Part shown: positions 2,794 to 17,348 of the stretch, in pieces
Layout of the letters: each line of letters opens with the position of its first letter
Numbering within the stretch: position 1 is the stretch's first letter
Source: a virus
DNA: 22,167 bases
IMG/VR virus record: IMGVR_UViG_3300007640_000273
Span: 1 to 22,167 of that record
Strand: one strand, 5' to 3'
The notes under the pieces: generated by a model
What the model was told of the DNA's origin: nothing
Databases searched by the model: none
What the model saw: the letters and a program-made list of their open reading frames with translations, nothing else
Position numbers and translations under genes: made by a program

Positions 2794-4491
2794 TCAAGAT
2801 TCAAGTGGTAAAACCGAAAGTGTTGTTGTAATTGTATTTACCGAACCTGACTTGTTCTCAACTTTTATATAAAGCTCATCCGCTGGTACCGCTTCAAAGT
2901 TAAAGTAATTTACGGCAGGGGTGACTATTACCTGCTGGGGTCCTGTAGTGATGATTTCCGCTAAGACTCCAGACCCAGGATCGGGATCTTCTGTCTCTAG
3001 CCTTGCTACGTCTGAAGTCCTTGCGGTCTGGCTGCAATAAACCGTGACCCAAGCCGCCTGGTCAACCTCAATAGCAAGTAACTGCCCTGCCTTTCCAGTG
3101 CCAGTAATAGTCAGGTTTTCATTGGCTCCATCAGCCAGAGAAGAGCTAGTAACGGAAGCAGTTGTGCGCAAGCTGTTAGCGCTAATAGTACCAGGCTCCC
3201 ATTGGCCTAGAAGGTTGTTCCATATCAGAGCTTGTCCATCTGTAGGTAGCGTGGTAGAGGTGTCTACGTCAGAAAGGTCATCGATAGATACGACACCTCC
3301 GCTGCCATTGGAAGCTGCTGTAATTCTGCCCTGGGCATCAACAGTAATAATTGGATTGGTAAAAGAACCAGCAGAAACCCCCGTATTTGTCAGATTCAGC
3401 GTAATCGAACCAGATGCAGTAATCGGTCCGCCAGAAGACGTTAACCCAGTTCCCCCAACAACATCAACACTAGTAACAGTGCCGCCAGTGAGGGGGGTTT
3501 CCCATGCTGGAACCCCTCCTGATACTGTCAAGACTTGACCTGCCGCGCCGATACCTAGCCTTGTAGTACTGCCTCCAGAGCGGATCACTACATCCCCGTC
3601 TGTTGTAAGAGGGTCCGCGTAGCCACCTCCAGCTCCGCTAGCAATTGAAGTAATTCTACCCTTTGAATCTACTGTGATGTTTGAACTTGTGTAACTTCCA
3701 GCTGTAACACCAGTATCGGTCAACGAAAGGTCGAAAGAGCCACTGCCTGTGACAGGACCTCCCACGGATGTGATGTCATCGCCGTCCAATATGTCAACAG
3801 AGGTAACAGTACCAGTAGTGCCTGGAAACTGCCAGGCAGGCAAACCGTTAGCTACAGTGAGAACCTGTCCAGCGAGTCCTATGTCAAGGGCTGTCGTAGA
3901 TCCATTCCTGTAAACCATCTGACCGTCCGCTGCTAGTGGATCCGTATAACCACCACCAGCGCCATTGGAAACATTGGTAACTCTTCCATAACTGTCTACG
4001 GTTATGTTGGCACTTGTGTAAGACCCTGGGGTGACAAGGTCCATCGTTGGTAGGTCGACCAAGAGGGAACCAGATGTTGTTACAGGGTTAACTGAAACTG
4101 TTAGCGTCGTACTACTAAGGCCAACGCTGGTTACAGTGCCAGTCCCAGCAGCGCCACTGCTAACCTGAACCCAGGCACTTGTATAATACACATGGTAAGA
4201 GTCATCGCTAGGCTTGAACCAAAGATCTCCGTCAGCTAACGGCAGCCCACTAAGACCTACGGTTGGAGCCGTGTCGCTGACGATAGCCCTTCCACTTGCA
4301 GAGGTTGGGTTAAATTTTACAATATCACCGCTACCATCAACTGAGTACATCTCCAGGTTGCCAGGAGACAGTCTTAGCACAATTTCGCCCTGGGTAATCT
4401 CGTCACTTCCTCCGCTACCAATAGCAGCCAGAATGGCAGCCTCGCTGTCCGTTGAGTTCTTTAAGACAATGCGATCAGGAAAGACTGCCAC
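2794..4491 (-). CDS. Tail fibre protein with glycine/threonine beta repeats
   Basis: This 565-residue protein probably forms a trimeric host-recognition fibre. Residues 1-115 resemble the common fibre base: a GEIVLRLSPGNLEMY strand segment, then ADGDLWFKPSDDSYHVYY...WVQV, a motif seen in many fibre N-termini. Residues 118-400 hold two full repeats and one partial repeat of about 110 residues, each with GTVTSV, GSFxLSLT, GxYTSxNITVDSxGRIT and DPLxxDGxVVxR...GQVLTV...PAW blocks. A linker at 401-440 leads to a C-terminal beta domain (440-565) containing WVTVYCSQTARTSD and EDPDPGSGVLAE, a pattern I associate with cyanophage fibres. The start is GTG with no clear ribosome binding site. The gene lies 41 nt after the Cys-rich protein gene. 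A fibre role is well supported; the receptor is unknown. Confidence 0.8.
   Translation of the reverse strand: MAVFPDRIVLKNSTDSEAAILAAIGSGGSDEITQGEIVLRLSPGNLEMYSVDGSGDIVKFNPTSASGRAIVSDTAPTVGLSGLPLADGDLWFKPSDDSYHVYYTSAWVQVSSGAAGTGTVTSVGLSSTTLTVSVNPVTTSGSLLVDLPTMDLVTPGSYTSANITVDSYGRVTNVSNGAGGGYTDPLAADGQMVYRNGSTTALDIGLAGQVLTVANGLPAWQFPGTTGTVTSVDILDGDDITSVGGPVTGSGSFDLSLTDTGVTAGSYTSSNITVDSKGRITSIASGAGGGYADPLTTDGDVVIRSGGSTTRLGIGAAGQVLTVSGGVPAWETPLTGGTVTSVDVVGGTGLTSSGGPITASGSITLNLTNTGVSAGSFTNPIITVDAQGRITAASNGSGGVVSIDDLSDVDTSTTLPTDGQALIWNNLLGQWEPGTISANSLRTTASVTSSSLADGANENLTITGTGKAGQLLAIEVDQAAWVTVYCSQTARTSDVARLETEDPDPGSGVLAEIITTGPQQVIVTPAVNYFNFEAVPADELYIKVENKSGSVNTITTTLSVLPLES
3292..4140 (-). repeat. 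Internal protein repeats of the tail fibre
   Basis: Residues 118-226, 227-336 and 337-400 of the fibre start with the same GTVTSV block and share the NITVDSxGRIT signature near their ends. The first two units are complete (109 and 110 residues) and the third is cut short after the signature. DNA identity between units is modest, so this is old duplication, not a recent expansion. Confidence 0.8.
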
Positions 4492-6882: not shown

Positions 6883-7626
6883 TTAAACAGCGTAGTAGCC
6901 AAACTGCTTCAGATTCCAGTAAAACACCGCTTCGTTGCCACCTGTCAAAGTAACCGCATTTGTAGTCTGAGCAACTGCTAGAATGTTTCCTTCATCAGGC
7001 CCTGGGGAAGACACAGTCGAGACAGCAAAGGCTAAGCTTCCAGTAGCCCCACTTGGACATACGCCAGCAGTAATAAGGTCCGCAGCAGTGAAGACGATCG
7101 CTTCCGCTGCTACATAGCCAGTACCACCATTGGAAAGGGTTACAGCATAATCACCCGCAGTGGCTCCGCTGTTGGTTACGGTGATGTTGATCATTAAACC
7201 TGTACCAGACCCGCTCGAAGAAGACTGGAGAATATTTGTATAGGTTCCATTAACACCAGCACTGGGTGCGCTATCTACGCCGCCGATGGCAGTAGTAACC
7301 CCAGAAGTCCAGACAAGAGCTACGTGGGAAAAATCAATCGCAGTAGCGCCACCGTCATGCGCAAAAATCGTTGACTTTGTATTCAAGGGTACACCGTCAT
7401 CGCTGTAAGCCAACACATCGCCCGACGTATACCCAATTGACTGAGGATAATAACCACCAGTACCTGGTGTTACAGCAAAGCTCAGGAAGCTAGTATCATC
7501 AGTAATTCCAGGAGTATAAGATGTTCCAGGTGCGTTAATGAGGCGTGCCTCGAAATAAGCATCAACGAATCGGTTCGTTACCTGAGCCGTTAACTCCGAA
7601 CTTGAGACTTTTGCAGCTAGGGCCAT
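6883..7626 (-). CDS. Putative virion structural protein with GxGY beta module
   Basis: This 247-residue protein has an N-terminal helix (SSSELTAQVTNRFVDAYFEARL) and then a Gly/Thr/Ser-rich beta region. Residues about 140-210 contain a module of the form GTGLMINITVTN ... NGGTGYVAAEAIVF ... GATGSLAFAVSTV. GxGY modules of this kind recur in tail and baseplate proteins, and the same pattern appears in the amber-separated extension of the tail tube gene (15453-15701). The protein ends WNLKQFGYYAV, compatible with an exposed strand. The ATG has no clear ribosome binding site. The 74-nt gap before it contains no ORF. A tail-tip or fibre-connector role is likely from context only. Confidence 0.6.
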   Translation of the reverse strand: MALAAKVSSSELTAQVTNRFVDAYFEARLINAPGTSYTPGITDDTSFLSFAVTPGTGGYYPQSIGYTSGDVLAYSDDGVPLNTKSTIFAHDGGATAIDFSHVALVWTSGVTTAIGGVDSAPSAGVNGTYTNILQSSSSGSGTGLMINITVTNSGATAGDYAVTLSNGGTGYVAAEAIVFTAADLITAGVCPSGATGSLAFAVSTVSSPGPDEGNILAVAQTTNAVTLTGGNEAVFYWNLKQFGYYAV

Positions 7627-10773: not shown

Positions 10774-13700
10774 TCAAGAATACCGAGACCTTTTGATCCT
10801 TGCAAGTTCGACCATCATGGTGCTTGCAGTTTTAGTTGGATTATTGGACTGAACAGTAACGTTGTTTACGACGTTGTTACTAGTGGCAACGCTAGAAGTT
10901 CTAGTAGAACTATTGCCAAACCTTACGTTTGCCCCCTTCGGCGTCTTGCTCTTCTTGCCTTGAGCTTTCATTTCACTCCAGACATTGGCGGGAATAATTT
11001 CACCATCCATAGGAGCTGTAAAACGATTGTTGGCATTTCCAGGCAACTCGAACATGGATCCGTCTTTGCCGACGAAACCTTCCTTTCCGATTTCGTTAAC
11101 CCTGTATGTGGTTCCACTAGTAACAGGGCCACCCCTCCATCTACTACCTCCTGATGGCTGACTTCCGGTATTGTCCTTACTGAAAGACCTGATATTATCA
11201 ATTCTTCTTTTACCTAGCTCAAGCAAATCATCAAAAGTTTCCATGCCATTGCCATCAAAACTATTGGTAATTTTTAAATCTTTTTCGTCAACACTAGGGA
11301 AGGTATTGGCTTCAAAATTTCCCTTAGAATTATCTGAATTAACGCCTTGAGAATCGTTTTTATCCCAGATGCTTTTGGGAACAGTCAAACTACCAGCTGC
11401 AGGTGTAAAAGCTTTAGAGAACAGGTCGTCGTAAAACCCTGAAAAAGGCTTATCTCCACCGTCGGCGGCATTCTCCTTCAGCTTTTCAACCCCTTTGTTG
11501 ACAGGCGTCTCGGAGGTTTCTTCTTGTAATGCCAGCTTACTCCAGAAATTTTCAGGAACAACTAATTCTTTAGCGGCAGTATTTTGCAAAAGCTCCTTAG
11601 CCCTTCCCTCAAAAGGATTTTCAAAGGCTTCCTTTTGCAATGTTAGTTTATTCCAGAAATTTTCAGGAACAACTGCCTCGTTAGTTGTAGCATTTTGCAA
11701 GAGCTCCTTAGCCCTTCCTCTGGCAGGCTTTTCAGAAACTTCTTCTTGTGCTGTCAGCTTACTCCAGAGTTTTTCAGAAATAGCTTGCTCGTTAGTGCTA
11801 GTATTTTGCCAGAGTTTTTCAGTCCCTTTCTTAAAAGGCTTTTCAGAAGTCTCTCCTTGTGGTGTCGATTTATTCCAGAAATTTTCAGAAATAGTTCCTT
11901 CGTTAGCTCCAGTATTTTGCAATAATTCTTTGGAAACTTTGTTAGTAGGCTCTTCGGAGGCTTCTTTTTGCGGTGTCGACTTACTCCAGAAATCTTCAAG
12001 AATATTCCCTTTGTTGGCAACAGCGTCTTGTTGAAGTTCTTTAACCCTTTTTCCAACAGGTGTTTTAGAGGGCTCTTCTTGTGCTGTCAGCTTACTCCAG
12101 ACATTGGCGGGAATAATTTCGCCGTCTATAGGAGCGGTAAAGCGACTGTTGGCACTTCCTGGCAGCTCAAACATGGAACCGTCCTTGCCAACAAAACCTT
12201 CCTTTCCGATTTCGTTAACCCTGTAGGTAGTACCTCCAGTAACAGGACCTCCCCTCCAATTGCCACCCCCTCCCGGCTGGGCTCCGGCGTTAGCGTCACC
12301 ACCACTTTTTTTGGCATTTTCTGATAGCTGTATTCCAATTGCCCTGGCCTTTTCCAGCTGTCTTTGTAAAGCTCCGTTAGTGATGTAATCAATGTCGTCC
12401 TCCAGACCTCTTTCGGCTTTGCCCATATCGTCAACCGCTGCCTCAATGTCTTCTAACTTGTCTTCTTGCTCGCCGAGTTTTTCCTTGATAAAATCAATCC
12501 TCTTTTTTCTTTCTTCGTGCTGCTTCTTTTCTTTTTCTCTAATATCATCTATAAACTTCTTTTCCTCTTCTTTCGCTTCTCTTTTCTTTTCTTTCAAATC
12601 CGTTATCCTATCCTTGCTGTCCCTGTTGTTTTGCTCATCAATACCAGCGAGCACCTCAAGTGCAGTCTTAATTTCCTCCATGGTCTTCATTTCAGCTGCC
12701 TTAATTTCCTCCTTTCTTTTTTTCTCCTCTTCGTCTAGCCTCTTTTTCTCCTCTGCTTGCTCTTTCTCTTTTTGAGCTTTTTCTTCCTCCAACTTCTTGA
12801 GTTCCTTTGCTTGCTGCTTCTCAATTTGAGCTCGGCGCTTGGAGTTTTGAATTTTTTCAATCTCAGCTCTTGCTCTTTGCCTTTCTATAGCGGTCTCAGC
12901 AGTACTGGCCTCCTTTCTCAGTTCATTAAGCTTCATCTGCTGAAGCCTTTGCTGCTGGGGACCATTGCCGCTGGAGACTGAATCAAGTTCAGCTGCATAT
13001 TTTTCTTTTATCTTTGCGATTTCTGCGTCAAGATTGCTTATTTCCGCTGCATGGCTCGCCTCCATCTCGGATCTTTTTCGATCGTAAAAAGCCTCTACAT
13101 CGCTCGTCAGCCCATCGTAGTATGCCCTGTAGTCGTTCCTTAGGCTATTGAGTCTATTTCTTTCGTCTTCCGTCTCTCTTTTTTGAACTTCTGACTTTCT
13201 TTGAATCTGACGAATTTGTTCGTCAACACCTTTGACTACTTCCTCTGTTTCTTTTTTGTTTGCATTAACTTTTGCATCAGCATTTCTCTTGATCGCCTCC
13301 ATCTCTTTGTTCAGAACTTCTATCTTCCTCTCTCCAAGCTGCTTGTCCCTGTCTAGCTGAGCCCTCTGGGCTTCAATCATCTCATTAAGCTTGGTTTTTG
13401 CGGCTCCATAGGCACCCTCAAGCCTCTTCATTTCGGCTTCAGCCTTCTTCGTATTAAGTGCGTCGATTGCCGCGTTCAATTCTTTTTGCTTTTCTGTAGT
13501 AGGCACAAGTCCAGAGTCTTTCATAGCCTGGAGTTCTTTCTCTAGCCTTTCGATCTCTTCCTCTTCTTTCTTGAAAGCATTGGTAGTTCCAGTGATAGCC
13601 TCATCGAGTGCTGTCTGAGCGTCAATAACACTTCTCATGTCACCCGCTTCTGCGAGTGCCTGTGTAAATCCCTTCATACCAGGAATGAGGTTAACTAGCC

Positions 13701-15348
13701 ATCCCAGTGTTTCAACCAGCCTTAAGATACCGGCCACAACCGCCGCAATGATCGTTCCAGCGCCACCAAGGATTACACCAAAAATTTGGATAAGACCGTA
13801 AGCGACAATTCCTAAAATCGTATTTAAAATCTTAAGGCTTTCAGAGAATTTTTCCGCCCAATTATCGCCAAGAATAGCCTTTGCGATTTCTTGGATTTTC
13901 TGAATCCAAAATTCAAAAGCCGCTGCTATCTCATAGATAACAATCATTAACCCGTTACTAATCCACTCGATCAAGACGCCAATAACAGCAGAAAGTTCTT
14001 TAAACATCGTCTGAATCCCAGGCATGCTGGTAGCGATTTTAGCAAAAAACTGTGCAAAAGCAGCTGAAATTCGCAACAAAGATTCACCCAATGGGGCAAG
14101 AGCTTCGCCCATAGATTCCATTGCAATCGTAATAAGGCTGTTAATTCTTGCCATTACCTGCTGAATGGTTGTGCCTCCTTTTTCTCCAATGGTTGAAATC
14201 GATTTCTGGATTTCTCCCATAGAGCCCGCAACAACCTTTCTGGACTCTTCAGCAGAAGCAATGAAAGCCTCTTTGAACATTTGAGCGCTAATCTCACCGT
14301 CTTGCATAGCCTTACCGAGATCCTTGATCCCGTAAGCGCTTTCCATGTAAGAGGCAATCTGGCCGCGAAGAGCTCCATCAAGTTCAGCAAACTGCTGATT
14401 AAGTTCTTCGCCCTGAAGCTTTCCTTTACCCATGACCTGGGCAAAGGCTTCGATGTACCGACCTGTCTGCTCGGTATTAAGACCAAGCGTAACGGCCTTC
14501 GCGGAAATAGCTTCAATAACCTTCTCTGTATCAGAGAGGCTTCCTCCTGACTGCATGATTGCAGGGCCAAGTCTCAAATAAGCCTTTTCGATTTTCTGGA
14601 TGCTTGCCCCGTAAGTTAGAGCTATAGCCCTTGAAGACTTCAAGATTTGATCCTGGTTGGCAACAGAAACTCCAAGAGCCTCAAAGGCCAACTGAACTCG
14701 CTGGATATCTTTAGCCCTGTTGACAAATTGCGACGCAGCCTGCTGTATTACCTGTATAGCCTGGCCAACGGCTTGAATCTGAAAGCTTAACTGGGTCATT
14801 TTATTACCCAGACTCGAAATCCTAGTCACGATATTACCGCCCTGGCCGGTTGCGGCGAAAGCCTCGTTAAGGTCTTTGCCTAGTTGGTTGACTTTGGCTT
14901 GGATTTTTGCGATTTCAGGATTAATAGCTCTGAATTTCTTCCCAGATGCACTGACCTGCGTCACATACGCAGCAGTTGCATTAAGGAGCTGCTTCTGGGT
15001 AGCCAGTTGCTGCTTCAGGCTGGTTACGCTTCCTGATCTCGCCTTATTTTCTTTGTCGAGCCCCTGCAGAACCTTGGACTGAAGTTTGTCCACTTCTTTG
15101 TATACTGTTTTATAAACGCCATCTAACCCTTTTTCTTGGGTCGTATTTATAGTTGTTTGGATGGTCACCTCGCCATCCATGTCCATTAATTTACCAAGCT
15201 GTTGACTGTACTCCTCGAATTTTCTCTTAGAATAAGCGTCGGTTTTGTCTTGTAATTTTTTAGCTTTATCATAAAGCCCTTGAATTACTTGACCCGGCTG
15301 AGCGGCGTCGATGTTAAGTTCGACAGGGAGCTTAATCTTCTGCGTCAT
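10774..15348 (-). CDS. Tail tape measure protein
   Basis: This 1524-residue protein sets tail length and probably passes into the host membrane during DNA entry. The N-terminal 200 residues are helical. Residues about 205-385 match the tape_meas_nterm family (FVNRAKDIQRVQLAFEALG, then KLQGEELNQQFAELDGALRGQIA). Residues about 425-560 are strongly hydrophobic with several possible membrane segments. A very long charged coiled coil fills about 590-1010. The C-terminal part is unusual: a 55-residue glycine-rich module (WRGGPVTGGTTYRVNEIGKE) at 1031-1085 recurs at 1404-1458, and between them lie six 37-residue repeats (1083 to about 1300). At about 0.15 nm per residue the length predicts a tail near 230 nm, if the repeats stay helical and extended. 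The start ATG has only a weak AGGT upstream; a terminator lies just before it. Confidence 0.9.
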   Translation of the reverse strand: MTQKIKLPVELNIDAAQPGQVIQGLYDKAKKLQDKTDAYSKRKFEEYSQQLGKLMDMDGEVTIQTTINTTQEKGLDGVYKTVYKEVDKLQSKVLQGLDKENKARSGSVTSLKQQLATQKQLLNATAAYVTQVSASGKKFRAINPEIAKIQAKVNQLGKDLNEAFAATGQGGNIVTRISSLGNKMTQLSFQIQAVGQAIQVIQQAASQFVNRAKDIQRVQLAFEALGVSVANQDQILKSSRAIALTYGASIQKIEKAYLRLGPAIMQSGGSLSDTEKVIEAISAKAVTLGLNTEQTGRYIEAFAQVMGKGKLQGEELNQQFAELDGALRGQIASYMESAYGIKDLGKAMQDGEISAQMFKEAFIASAEESRKVVAGSMGEIQKSISTIGEKGGTTIQQVMARINSLITIAMESMGEALAPLGESLLRISAAFAQFFAKIATSMPGIQTMFKELSAVIGVLIEWISNGLMIVIYEIAAAFEFWIQKIQEIAKAILGDNWAEKFSESLKILNTILGIVAYGLIQIFGVILGGAGTIIAAVVAGILRLVETLGWLVNLIPGMKGFTQALAEAGDMRSVIDAQTALDEAITGTTNAFKKEEEEIERLEKELQAMKDSGLVPTTEKQKELNAAIDALNTKKAEAEMKRLEGAYGAAKTKLNEMIEAQRAQLDRDKQLGERKIEVLNKEMEAIKRNADAKVNANKKETEEVVKGVDEQIRQIQRKSEVQKRETEDERNRLNSLRNDYRAYYDGLTSDVEAFYDRKRSEMEASHAAEISNLDAEIAKIKEKYAAELDSVSSGNGPQQQRLQQMKLNELRKEASTAETAIERQRARAEIEKIQNSKRRAQIEKQQAKELKKLEEEKAQKEKEQAEEKKRLDEEEKKRKEEIKAAEMKTMEEIKTALEVLAGIDEQNNRDSKDRITDLKEKKREAKEEEKKFIDDIREKEKKQHEERKKRIDFIKEKLGEQEDKLEDIEAAVDDMGKAERGLEDDIDYITNGALQRQLEKARAIGIQLSENAKKSGGDANAGAQPGGGGNWRGGPVTGGTTYRVNEIGKEGFVGKDGSMFELPGSANSRFTAPIDGEIIPANVWSKLTAQEEPSKTPVGKRVKELQQDAVANKGNILEDFWSKSTPQKEASEEPTNKVSKELLQNTGANEGTISENFWNKSTPQGETSEKPFKKGTEKLWQNTSTNEQAISEKLWSKLTAQEEVSEKPARGRAKELLQNATTNEAVVPENFWNKLTLQKEAFENPFEGRAKELLQNTAAKELVVPENFWSKLALQEETSETPVNKGVEKLKENAADGGDKPFSGFYDDLFSKAFTPAAGSLTVPKSIWDKNDSQGVNSDNSKGNFEANTFPSVDEKDLKITNSFDGNGMETFDDLLELGKRRIDNIRSFSKDNTGSQPSGGSRWRGGPVTSGTTYRVNEIGKEGFVGKDGSMFELPGNANNRFTAPMDGEIIPANVWSEMKAQGKKSKTPKGANVRFGNSSTRTSSVATSNNVVNNVTVQSNNPTKTASTMMVELARIKRSRYS
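10975..11139 (-). repeat. Duplicated TMP module, C-terminal copy
   Basis: This 165-bp segment encodes WRGGPVTSGTTYRVNEIGKE and onward to PANVWSEM. It aligns without gaps to 12094-12258 at an offset of 1119 nt and keeps many identical third positions, so the duplication is fairly recent. Both copies flank the 37-residue repeat array. Confidence 0.85.
11437..12102 (-). repeat. Six tandem 111-bp repeats in tape measure gene
   Basis: Units run 12102-11992, 11991-11881, 11880-11770, 11769-11659, 11658-11548 and a decayed sixth 11547-11437. Each encodes 37 residues beginning with a (F/V/L)W(S/N)K(L/S)TxQ block, then an ExxExP segment, a KELLQN block and an Asn/Glu-rich stretch ending in PEN or SEN. 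Unit 1 starts inside the last residues of the duplicated module (PANVWSKLTAQ), suggesting the repeat grew out of it. Protein similarity is clear in all five full units; DNA similarity is strongest in the PENFWNKL and KELLQN parts. Confidence 0.9.
12094..12258 (-). repeat. Duplicated TMP module, N-terminal copy
   Basis: This is the partner of 10975-11139, encoding WRGGPVTGGTTYRVNEIGKE to PANVWSK. The TYRVNEIGKEGFVG core resembles the TYRVGExGPELF-type motif often found near tape measure C-termini in siphoviruses, so a single copy was probably ancestral. Confidence 0.85.
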
Positions 15349-15389
15349 AACCTAACAAAATCTTCTATAGTCTTCCAGGTTTTAGGTGC

Positions 15390-15414
15390 AAAAAAGGGGC
15401 CTGATTAGAGCCCC
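15390..15414 (-). terminator. Rho-independent terminator between tail tube and tape measure
   Basis: On the minus strand GGGGC, a 9-nt loop and GCCCC are followed by six T. It lies after the end of the extended tail tube frame (15453) and 42 nt before the tape measure start, and so can lower tape measure mRNA relative to tail tube mRNA. Confidence 0.8.
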
Positions 15415-15452
15415 TCCGGTATTCTTCGCCGTAAGTATCGCGGTTACGGACT

Positions 15453-15701
15453 TCAGGAAATCGTCGCGACTCGGAAGGAGCCCACACCAGGGGTACCACC
15501 CACTTCGGTAACAGTGACGGTGTCGCCAACCGAATAGCCAGAGCCAGCAGAGGTGATGTTGACTGCGGTAATGTCTCCAGAGACGTCTGTATCGACGGTA
15601 CCGGTGGCATTGCCAGAGAGGGTGACTGCGGCCCCTACTTGAGAGGCCGTAAAAGCAGTCGTGGTAGCTAGTGTGTCGACGGAGGCGATACCTCCAGTCA
15701 G
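15453..15701 (-). CDS. In-frame C-terminal extension of tail tube behind TAG
   Basis: Directly after the tail tube TAG, the same frame stays open for 82 codons to a TGA at 15455-15453. The encoded stretch starts LTGGIASVDTLATTT, contains SAGSGYSVGDTVTVTEVGG and ends GSFRVATIS: a compact Gly/Thr/Val beta module like the GxGY domain in the protein at 6883-7626. Codon choice is the same C/G-ending style as the tail tube gene. It has no ATG and no ribosome binding site, and CTG right after the stop is an unlikely start, so it is best explained as a readthrough extension giving a 280-residue minor form of the tail tube protein. In other siphoviruses (for example SPP1 17.1*) such extensions are made by frameshifting. 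A recent nonsense mutation of a longer gene cannot be ruled out. Confidence 0.65.
   Translation of the reverse strand: MTGGIASVDTLATTTAFTASQVGAAVTLSGNATGTVDTDVSGDITAVNITSAGSGYSVGDTVTVTEVGGTPGVGSFRVATIS
15681..15695 (-). promoter_or_regulatory. Stem-loop 6 nt after the tail tube TAG
   Basis: GGAGG-TATCG-CCTCC on the minus strand is a perfect 5-bp GC-rich stem with a 5-nt loop, beginning 6 nt after the TAG (15704-15702). Structures at this distance stimulate stop-codon readthrough or frameshifting in well-studied viral cases. Here the role is inferred from position. Confidence 0.5.
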
Positions 15702-16295
15702 CTAAGCAATAGCGTCAAGCTCAAGCTGGTAAGGACCATAGCCAGTGATGGAGCATTCCCAGGACACGATGCTGGTAACTTCGTTGGACTCGGTATAGCC
15801 CATCAGAGTGCCGTAGCCATAGACGGTCTCAACGGTGCCAGTAGGACCAACACGAAGAACCTTCACGCGGAGGCCGTTGCTAACGGTGTTGGCTTCGGTG
15901 AGACGGAGAATCTGGTAGCCCACATCCTTGAAATCAGCGATACCAGCCAAGGACAGGTTGAAGCTCTTAGTGGTAGCCACAGCCTGGTTGAAGCCTTTGG
16001 ATTCATCGTCGTAGGTGTAAACGTCCTCGGAACCAGTATCGGTCTCCAGGGAAGCCTGGGTCAGACCAGCCAGGCGCACAGGCTTGTCAGTGCCATCCAT
16101 AGTAAAAGTGTCAGCGCCAACGGTGAAAATGCCGTTTGCGAAAGACACAGCACCAGCAGCGAGGGTGGTGGTGTCAATGAAACCCGTAGTAGGAGCGTCG
16201 CCAGCGGTGACACCATTAAAGGTCACGTCGACACTAGCGGAGTTCAAAGGGACAATGTAGAAGTCGTAGCCAAAGGCTGCGTTGAAGTTTGCCAT
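15702..16295 (-). CDS. Major tail tube protein
   Basis: This 197-residue protein polymerises into the tail tube. It is a small, beta-rich, Thr/Gly-rich protein directly upstream of the tape measure and directly downstream of the putative tail terminator. The pattern TYDDESKGFNQAVATTKSF, then SLAGIADFKDVGYQILRL and a C-terminal SIVSWECSITGYGPYQLELD is typical of siphovirus tail tube proteins, where the last strand contacts the next ring. Codons are strongly C/G-ending, like the capsid gene, which fits high expression. It ends in TAG, but the frame continues for 82 codons (see 15453-15701). No Shine-Dalgarno sequence is visible; a CGGGT-ATAC-ACCCG hairpin followed by TTTT (16301-16318) sits just before the ATG and may affect translation or trim the message. 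Confidence 0.85.
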   Translation of the reverse strand: MANFNAAFGYDFYIVPLNSASVDVTFNGVTAGDAPTTGFIDTTTLAAGAVSFANGIFTVGADTFTMDGTDKPVRLAGLTQASLETDTGSEDVYTYDDESKGFNQAVATTKSFNLSLAGIADFKDVGYQILRLTEANTVSNGLRVKVLRVGPTGTVETVYGYGTLMGYTESNEVTSIVSWECSITGYGPYQLELDAIA

Positions 16296-16925: not shown

Positions 16926-17348
16926 ATGAGCGACGTAGTTAAAATACAGGTCTACGACCGTCCTTCAGACTACGTTTACAACATGACTACATTAAATAGC
17001 GGCGAAGCCCGCCGACTTTGGCGTGCAGCAATCAAAGAAGCTTGGGATAACAAGTGCGCCTACTGCGATTCGCCACCAATTTCGGACGAGTCTCTTACCA
17101 TTGACCACGTAAAGCCAAGATCTAGGGGAGGTCAGGACTGCACTTCCAACGTGATCCCCGCTTGCTGGAAATGCAATCAGGCAAAAGCGAGTCTTGATTG
17201 GGTCGCTTGGTACAGAATGCAGCCATTTTACTCGATCAACGGTGAATGGCGTATCAGAGAGTGGCTTAGGACTGGAGAAGTCAAAGACCTAGTATCAAGT
17301 CAAGATGACTCCGACTGGCACGAAAACCTTATCAACGAATTAATTTGA
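16926..17348 (+). CDS. HNH homing-type endonuclease
   Basis: This 140-residue protein has an HNH nuclease core: zinc cysteines at 44 and 47 (CAYC), the catalytic Asp60-His61 pair (LTIDHVKPRSRGG), Asn75, and a second zinc pair at 80 and 83 (CWKCNQAK). The C-terminal helix (LDWVAWYRMQPFY) and a WRIREWL stretch follow as in cyanophage and T4-type HNH enzymes. It would cut DNA specifically, most often to spread its own gene into related phages lacking it. It is on the strand opposite to the surrounding structural genes, between the chaperone frameshift ORF and the tail terminator, and its last 17 nt overlap the former tail to tail. The ATG has only a weak AAAGA upstream; a TTGACG lies close by but no fitting -10. 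A late-gene packaging HNH role is less likely because no terminase is adjacent. Confidence 0.85.
   Translation: MSDVVKIQVYDRPSDYVYNMTTLNSGEARRLWRAAIKEAWDNKCAYCDSPPISDESLTIDHVKPRSRGGQDCTSNVIPACWKCNQAKASLDWVAWYRMQPFYSINGEWRIREWLRTGEVKDLVSSQDDSDWHENLINELI

Follow-up and report, generated by a model that had tools for sequence, protein, structure and literature searches.

Tailed phages are known to make minor, extended forms of their tail tube or capsid subunits by frameshifting, and in the RNA virus Q-beta the A1 protein arises by readthrough of the coat protein gene. In phage SPP1, a single gene encodes the tail tube protein gp17.1 and a minor, C-terminally extended form, gp17.1*, at a ratio of about 3:1 (roughly one long subunit in four), and in the laboratory the phage can do without the extension (PMC6316719, PMC8718954). 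This extension, an FN3 (Ig-fold) domain of 87 amino acids, is added by a +1 shift at CCCUAA. The major tail protein gene of the Listeria phages A118, A500 and PSA also yields a second product, again by +1 frameshifting (PMC5009743). Poleroviruses and enamoviruses use a leaky stop in the coat gene to produce a minor extended virion subunit (PMC9553062). Coat readthrough in RNA viruses involves other contexts and stimulators and unrelated proteins, whereas the gene described here belongs to the tail of a tailed dsDNA phage. We found no described case of stop-codon readthrough extending the tail tube in tailed dsDNA phages; a search of open papers, which did not cover the S-CBS2 genome paper, returned no report of readthrough in tail tube or cyanophage genes.

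The DNA analysed here (hereafter, the window) is a virus record of 22,167 bases in which most structural genes lie on the minus strand. Among named phages it is closest to the Synechococcus siphophages S-CRES1, S-CRES2, S-CRES3 and S-CBS2, and it is a fragment of an S-CBS2-like cyanosiphovirus, one of a family whose hosts are marine cyanobacteria. The product of positions 15702-16295 on the minus strand (197 codons at 15705..16295, followed by the stop) is securely identified as a tail tube protein. It matches phrog_38654 with an E value of 1.3e-73 and scores above the cut-off for NCBIfam NF047353 (38 bits, cut-off 27), the family of Listeria type. For Pfam PF06199, the window tube falls below the cut-off (17.6 of 23.8) and the S-CBS2 tube exceeds it (29.4). 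The tube part of a model of tube and extension fused, itself only moderate in quality (pLDDT 76.4), matched lambda gpV, the SPP1 tube and others in Foldseek, with a best E value of 3e-5.

The tube frame ends in TAG (15702..15704, minus strand) and then, as a sequence-only reading had noted, remains open for 82 codons (15456..15701) up to a TGA at 15453..15455. Both SPP1 and the window thus place a C-terminal extension of similar size behind the tube gene, but here it follows a UAG in frame. We propose, with a probability of roughly 85%, that programmed readthrough of this UAG yields a minor, longer tail tube protein; the readthrough itself, its level, the residue inserted, incorporation into the tail and the role of the long form are all inferred from sequence. 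In random sequence with the base composition of the window, 82 codons stay open in 2.0% of cases, in agreement with the earlier estimate of about 2%. The other TAG-ending genes of the window, cited in that reading as an internal control, do soon meet a further in-frame stop, after 8, 1, 2 and 4 codons. Its statement that the extension has no start of its own was confirmed as well: there is no ATG, and GTG does not appear before codon 67, too far in to be relevant. A terminator-like hairpin read from the sequence, GGGGC TCTAATCAG GCCCC TTTTTT (15390..15414, minus strand), lies downstream of the extension, which places the extension within the tube transcript. Of 37 relatives, 32 have such a hairpin after the extension stop; in phages without an extension it comes after the tube stop, in 14 cases out of 17. 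As an 82-codon run alone has a 2% chance, the case for readthrough rests on the relatives.

We scanned IMG/VR twice for tail tubes, with the tube protein and with a tube alignment, and the two scans agreed. After collapsing, 60 distinct tube genes formed the set for all counts of TAG and extension. Every TAG-ending tube is followed by an in-frame extension (43/43), and none of the tubes ending in TGA or TAA is (0/17). All 43 extensions keep to frame 0; they measure 81-89 amino acids or, as two tandem modules, 185-187. Fisher's test gave a p value of 8e-10 for this association with tubes clustered at 90% identity and 3e-6 at 80%. On the tube tree the trait changes nine times, at least six of these changes being forced by well supported branches, and TAG and extension switch jointly. 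A third scan was queried by a single extension protein, and TAG precedes every tail tube extension examined in it. The cultured phage S-CBS2, whose host is Synechococcus CB0204, has the same arrangement, with a tube TAG followed by an 85-codon extension, and it is therefore not an assembly artefact. In GenBank, the S-CBS2 extension is annotated as a separate 'structural protein', gp020, with a GTG start 7 codons after the TAG. In S-CRES1, S-CRES2 and S-CRES3 the tube gene stops at TGA and no extension follows; PSS2, a more distant phage, lacks one too. A search of genome contigs yielded a single relative, which lies in a metagenome-assembled genome bearing the title Proteobacteria and shows the TAG arrangement; a plasmid search gave no match.

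For the window alone, given the 2% chance of so long a run, one could entertain a frame left open by chance, or a longer tail tube gene recently shortened by a nonsense mutation. This explanation would leave 43 distinct relatives with the same arrangement, none carrying a sense codon at the stop, and with both stop and extension under selection, and we give it next to no credence. The finding that would have refuted the sequence-only reading, relatives with a sense codon in place of the stop, was sought among the relatives, including those from the extension-based scan, and did not turn up. Two relatives, L032 and L182 (IMGVR 3300017951_000145), carry an in-frame TAG at tube codon 18, where their relatives have a sense codon (K), in tubes that are otherwise intact; whether this is a sequencing error or a second UAG is unknown.

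Across relatives, dN/dS is about 0.30 for the extension and 0.20 for the tube, a substitution pattern from which we infer that the extension is under purifying, coding selection. AlphaFold2 modelled the window extension as a six-stranded beta domain with a mean pLDDT of 96.8, in line with its earlier description as a well-formed beta module. The fusion model shows tube and extension as two distinct parts; the linker between them, residues 195-199 at the UAG, is modelled with low confidence. As regards the output, a minor extended tube protein, the comparison with SPP1 17.1* in the sequence-only reading holds. For the added domain, no FN3 or Ig family matched the extension above cut-off, and among solved (PDB) structures there were only weak matches to beta-barrel domains. 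The window extension appears to be a small beta module different from that of SPP1. The T4 gp18 domain I family (PF22639) was rejected as a match, at 18.6 bits against a cut-off of 27 and over 21 residues only.

The best viral fold match of the extension is the C-terminal domain of Syn5 gp58 (TM 0.85, 49% identity), which also matched by tblastn (61% identity over 53 amino acids) and by hhalign (probability 98.9). Additional density seen on the Syn5 capsid has tentatively been attributed to Syn5 gp58, a virion protein (PMC9207676). The protein shares homology with the extension through its C-terminal domain, but it is a stand-alone podovirus protein made without recoding. Further fold matches were cyanophage tail, fibre and structural proteins. 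From these matches and that to Syn5 gp58, we take the extension to be a virion-type module that cyanophages use in several places. A structural protein of one relative (L238, IMGVR 3300007346_000880; a 331-residue frame around position 3001) seems to contain the beta module in an ordinary sense frame. Its counterpart in the window (6883-7626, minus strand) looks related, and BLASTP for the module was not significant there.

The modules are also mobile. In L020 and L028, the extensions share 92% nucleotide identity and the tubes 68%, and the extension is likewise more alike than the tube in L030/L167, L001/L066 and L072/L173. Similarity so much greater in the modules than in the tubes attached to them indicates that modules are exchanged between tail tubes. 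In the relatives with 185-187-residue extensions (L013, L075, L194 and L202), each half matches the extension profile, which identifies these extensions as two tandem modules.

The nucleotides around the stop form a linear context, GCT TAG CTG ACT GGA GGT in the window (15690..15707, minus strand) and NNT TAG YTG AYT GGR GGT in the family. The codon before TAG is NNT in all 43 TAG tubes (GCT, AAT, ACT, AGT, ATT, GGT, CCT and GTT all occur), versus NNC in 11 of 17 unextended tubes. With TAG counted as positions 1-3, a TGA at positions 5-7 is invariant in the TAG tubes. We measured synonymous conservation in 25 extensions with pairwise identity below 80%. The third extension codon is GGA in 23 of 25 (background 12%, p 3e-19), threonine at the second is written ACT in 17 of 18 (p 2e-8), leucine directly after TAG is written YTG in 25 of 25 (p 7e-7), and NNT precedes the stop in 25 of 25 (p about 1e-11). 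These p values overstate the strength of the signal, because the 25 sequences are treated as independent although they share ancestry and exchange modules; the direction is consistent nonetheless. Such position counts indicate that the nucleotides around the stop, NNU UAG YUG AYU GGR GGU, are conserved beyond what the protein requires.

Homologous modules that do not follow a TAG, those of Syn5 gp58 and of the L238 structural protein, lack GGAGGT at the matching place. A scan of IMG/VR with nothing but the 20-base motif retrieved 25 stretches, every one an extended tail tube. A looser motif with 14 specified bases, TTAGCTGATTGGRGG, gave 72 stretches, among which the tail tubes are extended and the others look like chance matches, and use of the motif at other genes was rejected. 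Five relatives with an altered GGAGG (L161, L194, L198, L202 and L204) retain NNT TAG CTGA and the extension, which points to U UAG YUG A as the core.

The same positions bear on two further ways of passing the stop. In-frame bypassing, whereby the ribosome would hop over the UAG without inserting a residue, has been achieved with synthetic constructs and has been raised for natural readthrough cases (PMC5009743). It is barely tenable at this locus, where the preceding codon varies while the following one is YTG, leaving no matching landing codon. Frameshifting at the tube stop is not needed to reach the extension, and here too the codon before the stop varies.

A GC stem-loop just after the TAG had been noted in the earlier reading. 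The hairpin GGAGGTATCGCCTCC (GGAGG/CCTCC; 15681..15695, minus strand) does begin 6 nt after the TAG, but it fails as a conserved feature: its 3' arm is absent in most relatives, the window region around it is not unusually stable (z -0.57), and RNAalifold on the relatives found no covarying structure. Since it is not conserved, the stem-loop is probably not functional and is unlikely to stimulate readthrough. Of the joint conservation of TAG, stem and extension that would be looked for in relatives, TAG and extension show a perfect association and the stem does not take part.

Conservation of GGA GGT at the nucleotide level, together with its match to the anti-Shine-Dalgarno sequence, raises the main rival to readthrough. 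On this view ribosomes re-initiate after termination, or initiate internally, with GGAGGU just after the UAG in the role of Shine-Dalgarno sequence, and translate the extension into a small virion protein of its own (compare S-CBS2 gp020). In its favour, 8 of 39 relatives have a GTG 8 codons downstream of the TAG, but no start is conserved: ATG occurs in none of the 39 extensions, 7 lack ATG, GTG and TTG throughout, 19 lack all three within their first 20 codons, and the window has none near the stop. Initiation would also leave unexplained why only TAG is used and why NNT always precedes it, and the few relatives without GGAGG still keep NNT TAG CTGA and the extension. We consider re-initiation quite unlikely; the extension as an independent gene was rejected for want of a conserved start codon.

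The exceptionless use of UAG in extended tubes speaks for another rival, efficient suppression or reassignment of UAG by a phage or host tRNA, under which the long form would predominate, as in phages that use genetic code 15. However, TAG is a normal stop elsewhere, where S-CBS2 uses it for 20 of 102 genes and the window for 5 of 23, and if UAG were a sense codon the conserved context would be needless. Nor was any tRNA found in S-CBS2 or the window, a search of phage sequences that does not extend to the host genome. Efficient suppression or reassignment is accordingly highly unlikely, and genetic code 15, in which TAG is sense genome-wide, is not met by these gene ends. Some TAG-ending S-CBS2 genes are followed by open runs of 164-510 codons, which, by coordinates, appear to enter the next annotated gene in the same frame. 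A phage-encoded suppressor tRNA was rejected, with no UAG-reading tRNA in the window, S-CBS2 or 14 related records, most of them fragments. One of these records (L221, IMGVR 3300031841_004050) has tRNAs above cut-off, a tandem tRNA-Met(CAT) and tRNA-Leu(TAA) at 1424-1583, and the other 13 gave no tRNA match.

Programmed readthrough is supported by the conservation, together, of TAG, its flanking nucleotides and a translated extension, while the readthrough event itself remains an inference. Under this model, most ribosomes would terminate at the UAG and release the 197-residue tail tube protein. A minority would decode the UAG with an ordinary near-cognate host tRNA, probably inserting glutamine, the residue reported at UAG in the absence of a suppressor (PMC8954436). 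They would continue in frame for 82 codons to give a tube protein of 280 residues, in which a short, flexible linker at the site of the UAG would connect the tube to the additional C-terminal beta domain. The expected junction is the tube end, one extra residue and LTGGIATVDTLTTSSPF. The degree of leakage would be governed by a short linear element, U UAG YUG AYU GGR GGU. With the long form built in among ordinary subunits, part of the tube's subunits would carry a module on the surface, much as with SPP1 gp17.1*. Host-surface adhesion and particle stabilisation are likely roles of this module, by analogy, since cyanophages place like modules on other virion proteins; its absence from S-CRES1-3, phages of the same group, suggests that it is accessory, perhaps for adhesion. 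Counting against readthrough are the annotation of a separate gene in S-CBS2, the Shine-Dalgarno-like GGAGGU, which leaves re-initiation open, and the lack of proteomic, reporter or ribosome-profiling evidence.

We lean, with less assurance, towards regarding U UAG YUG AYU GGR GGU as a new bacterial-type readthrough signal, compact and linear, which would have evolved in cyanosiphoviruses, been kept while extension modules were swapped between tail tubes, and might act partly by pairing of GGAGGU with 16S rRNA. Programmed stop-codon readthrough in tailed dsDNA phages would then have its first known example. If true, extension of the tube by stop-codon readthrough is an evolutionary solution separate from frameshifting. 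UAG is reportedly almost absent from highly expressed bacterial genes (PMC8954436), and the tube gene, presumably highly expressed, keeps it without exception wherever an extension follows. A motif so short and defined could reveal how the bacterial ribosome is made to leak at UAG. Because such extensions are missed in annotation or called separate genes, similar cases in other phages may have been overlooked.

The surroundings of the tube gene offer some further observations. Only about 100 bases (15349-15452) separate the extension from the tape measure gene, which leaves no room for a separate tail assembly chaperone gene of the G/GT type found between tube and tape measure in lambda. The long tape measure-like protein (10774-15348, minus strand) has coiled-coil-like charged repeats between its other parts, and WRGGPVT-GTTYRVNEIGKEGFVGKDGSMFELPG occurs twice in it. 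Upstream of the tail genes, on the opposite strand, lies an HNH-endonuclease-like open reading frame (16926-17348, plus strand); S-CBS2 and the S-CRES phages have an annotated HNH endonuclease in the equivalent place, also on the opposite strand.
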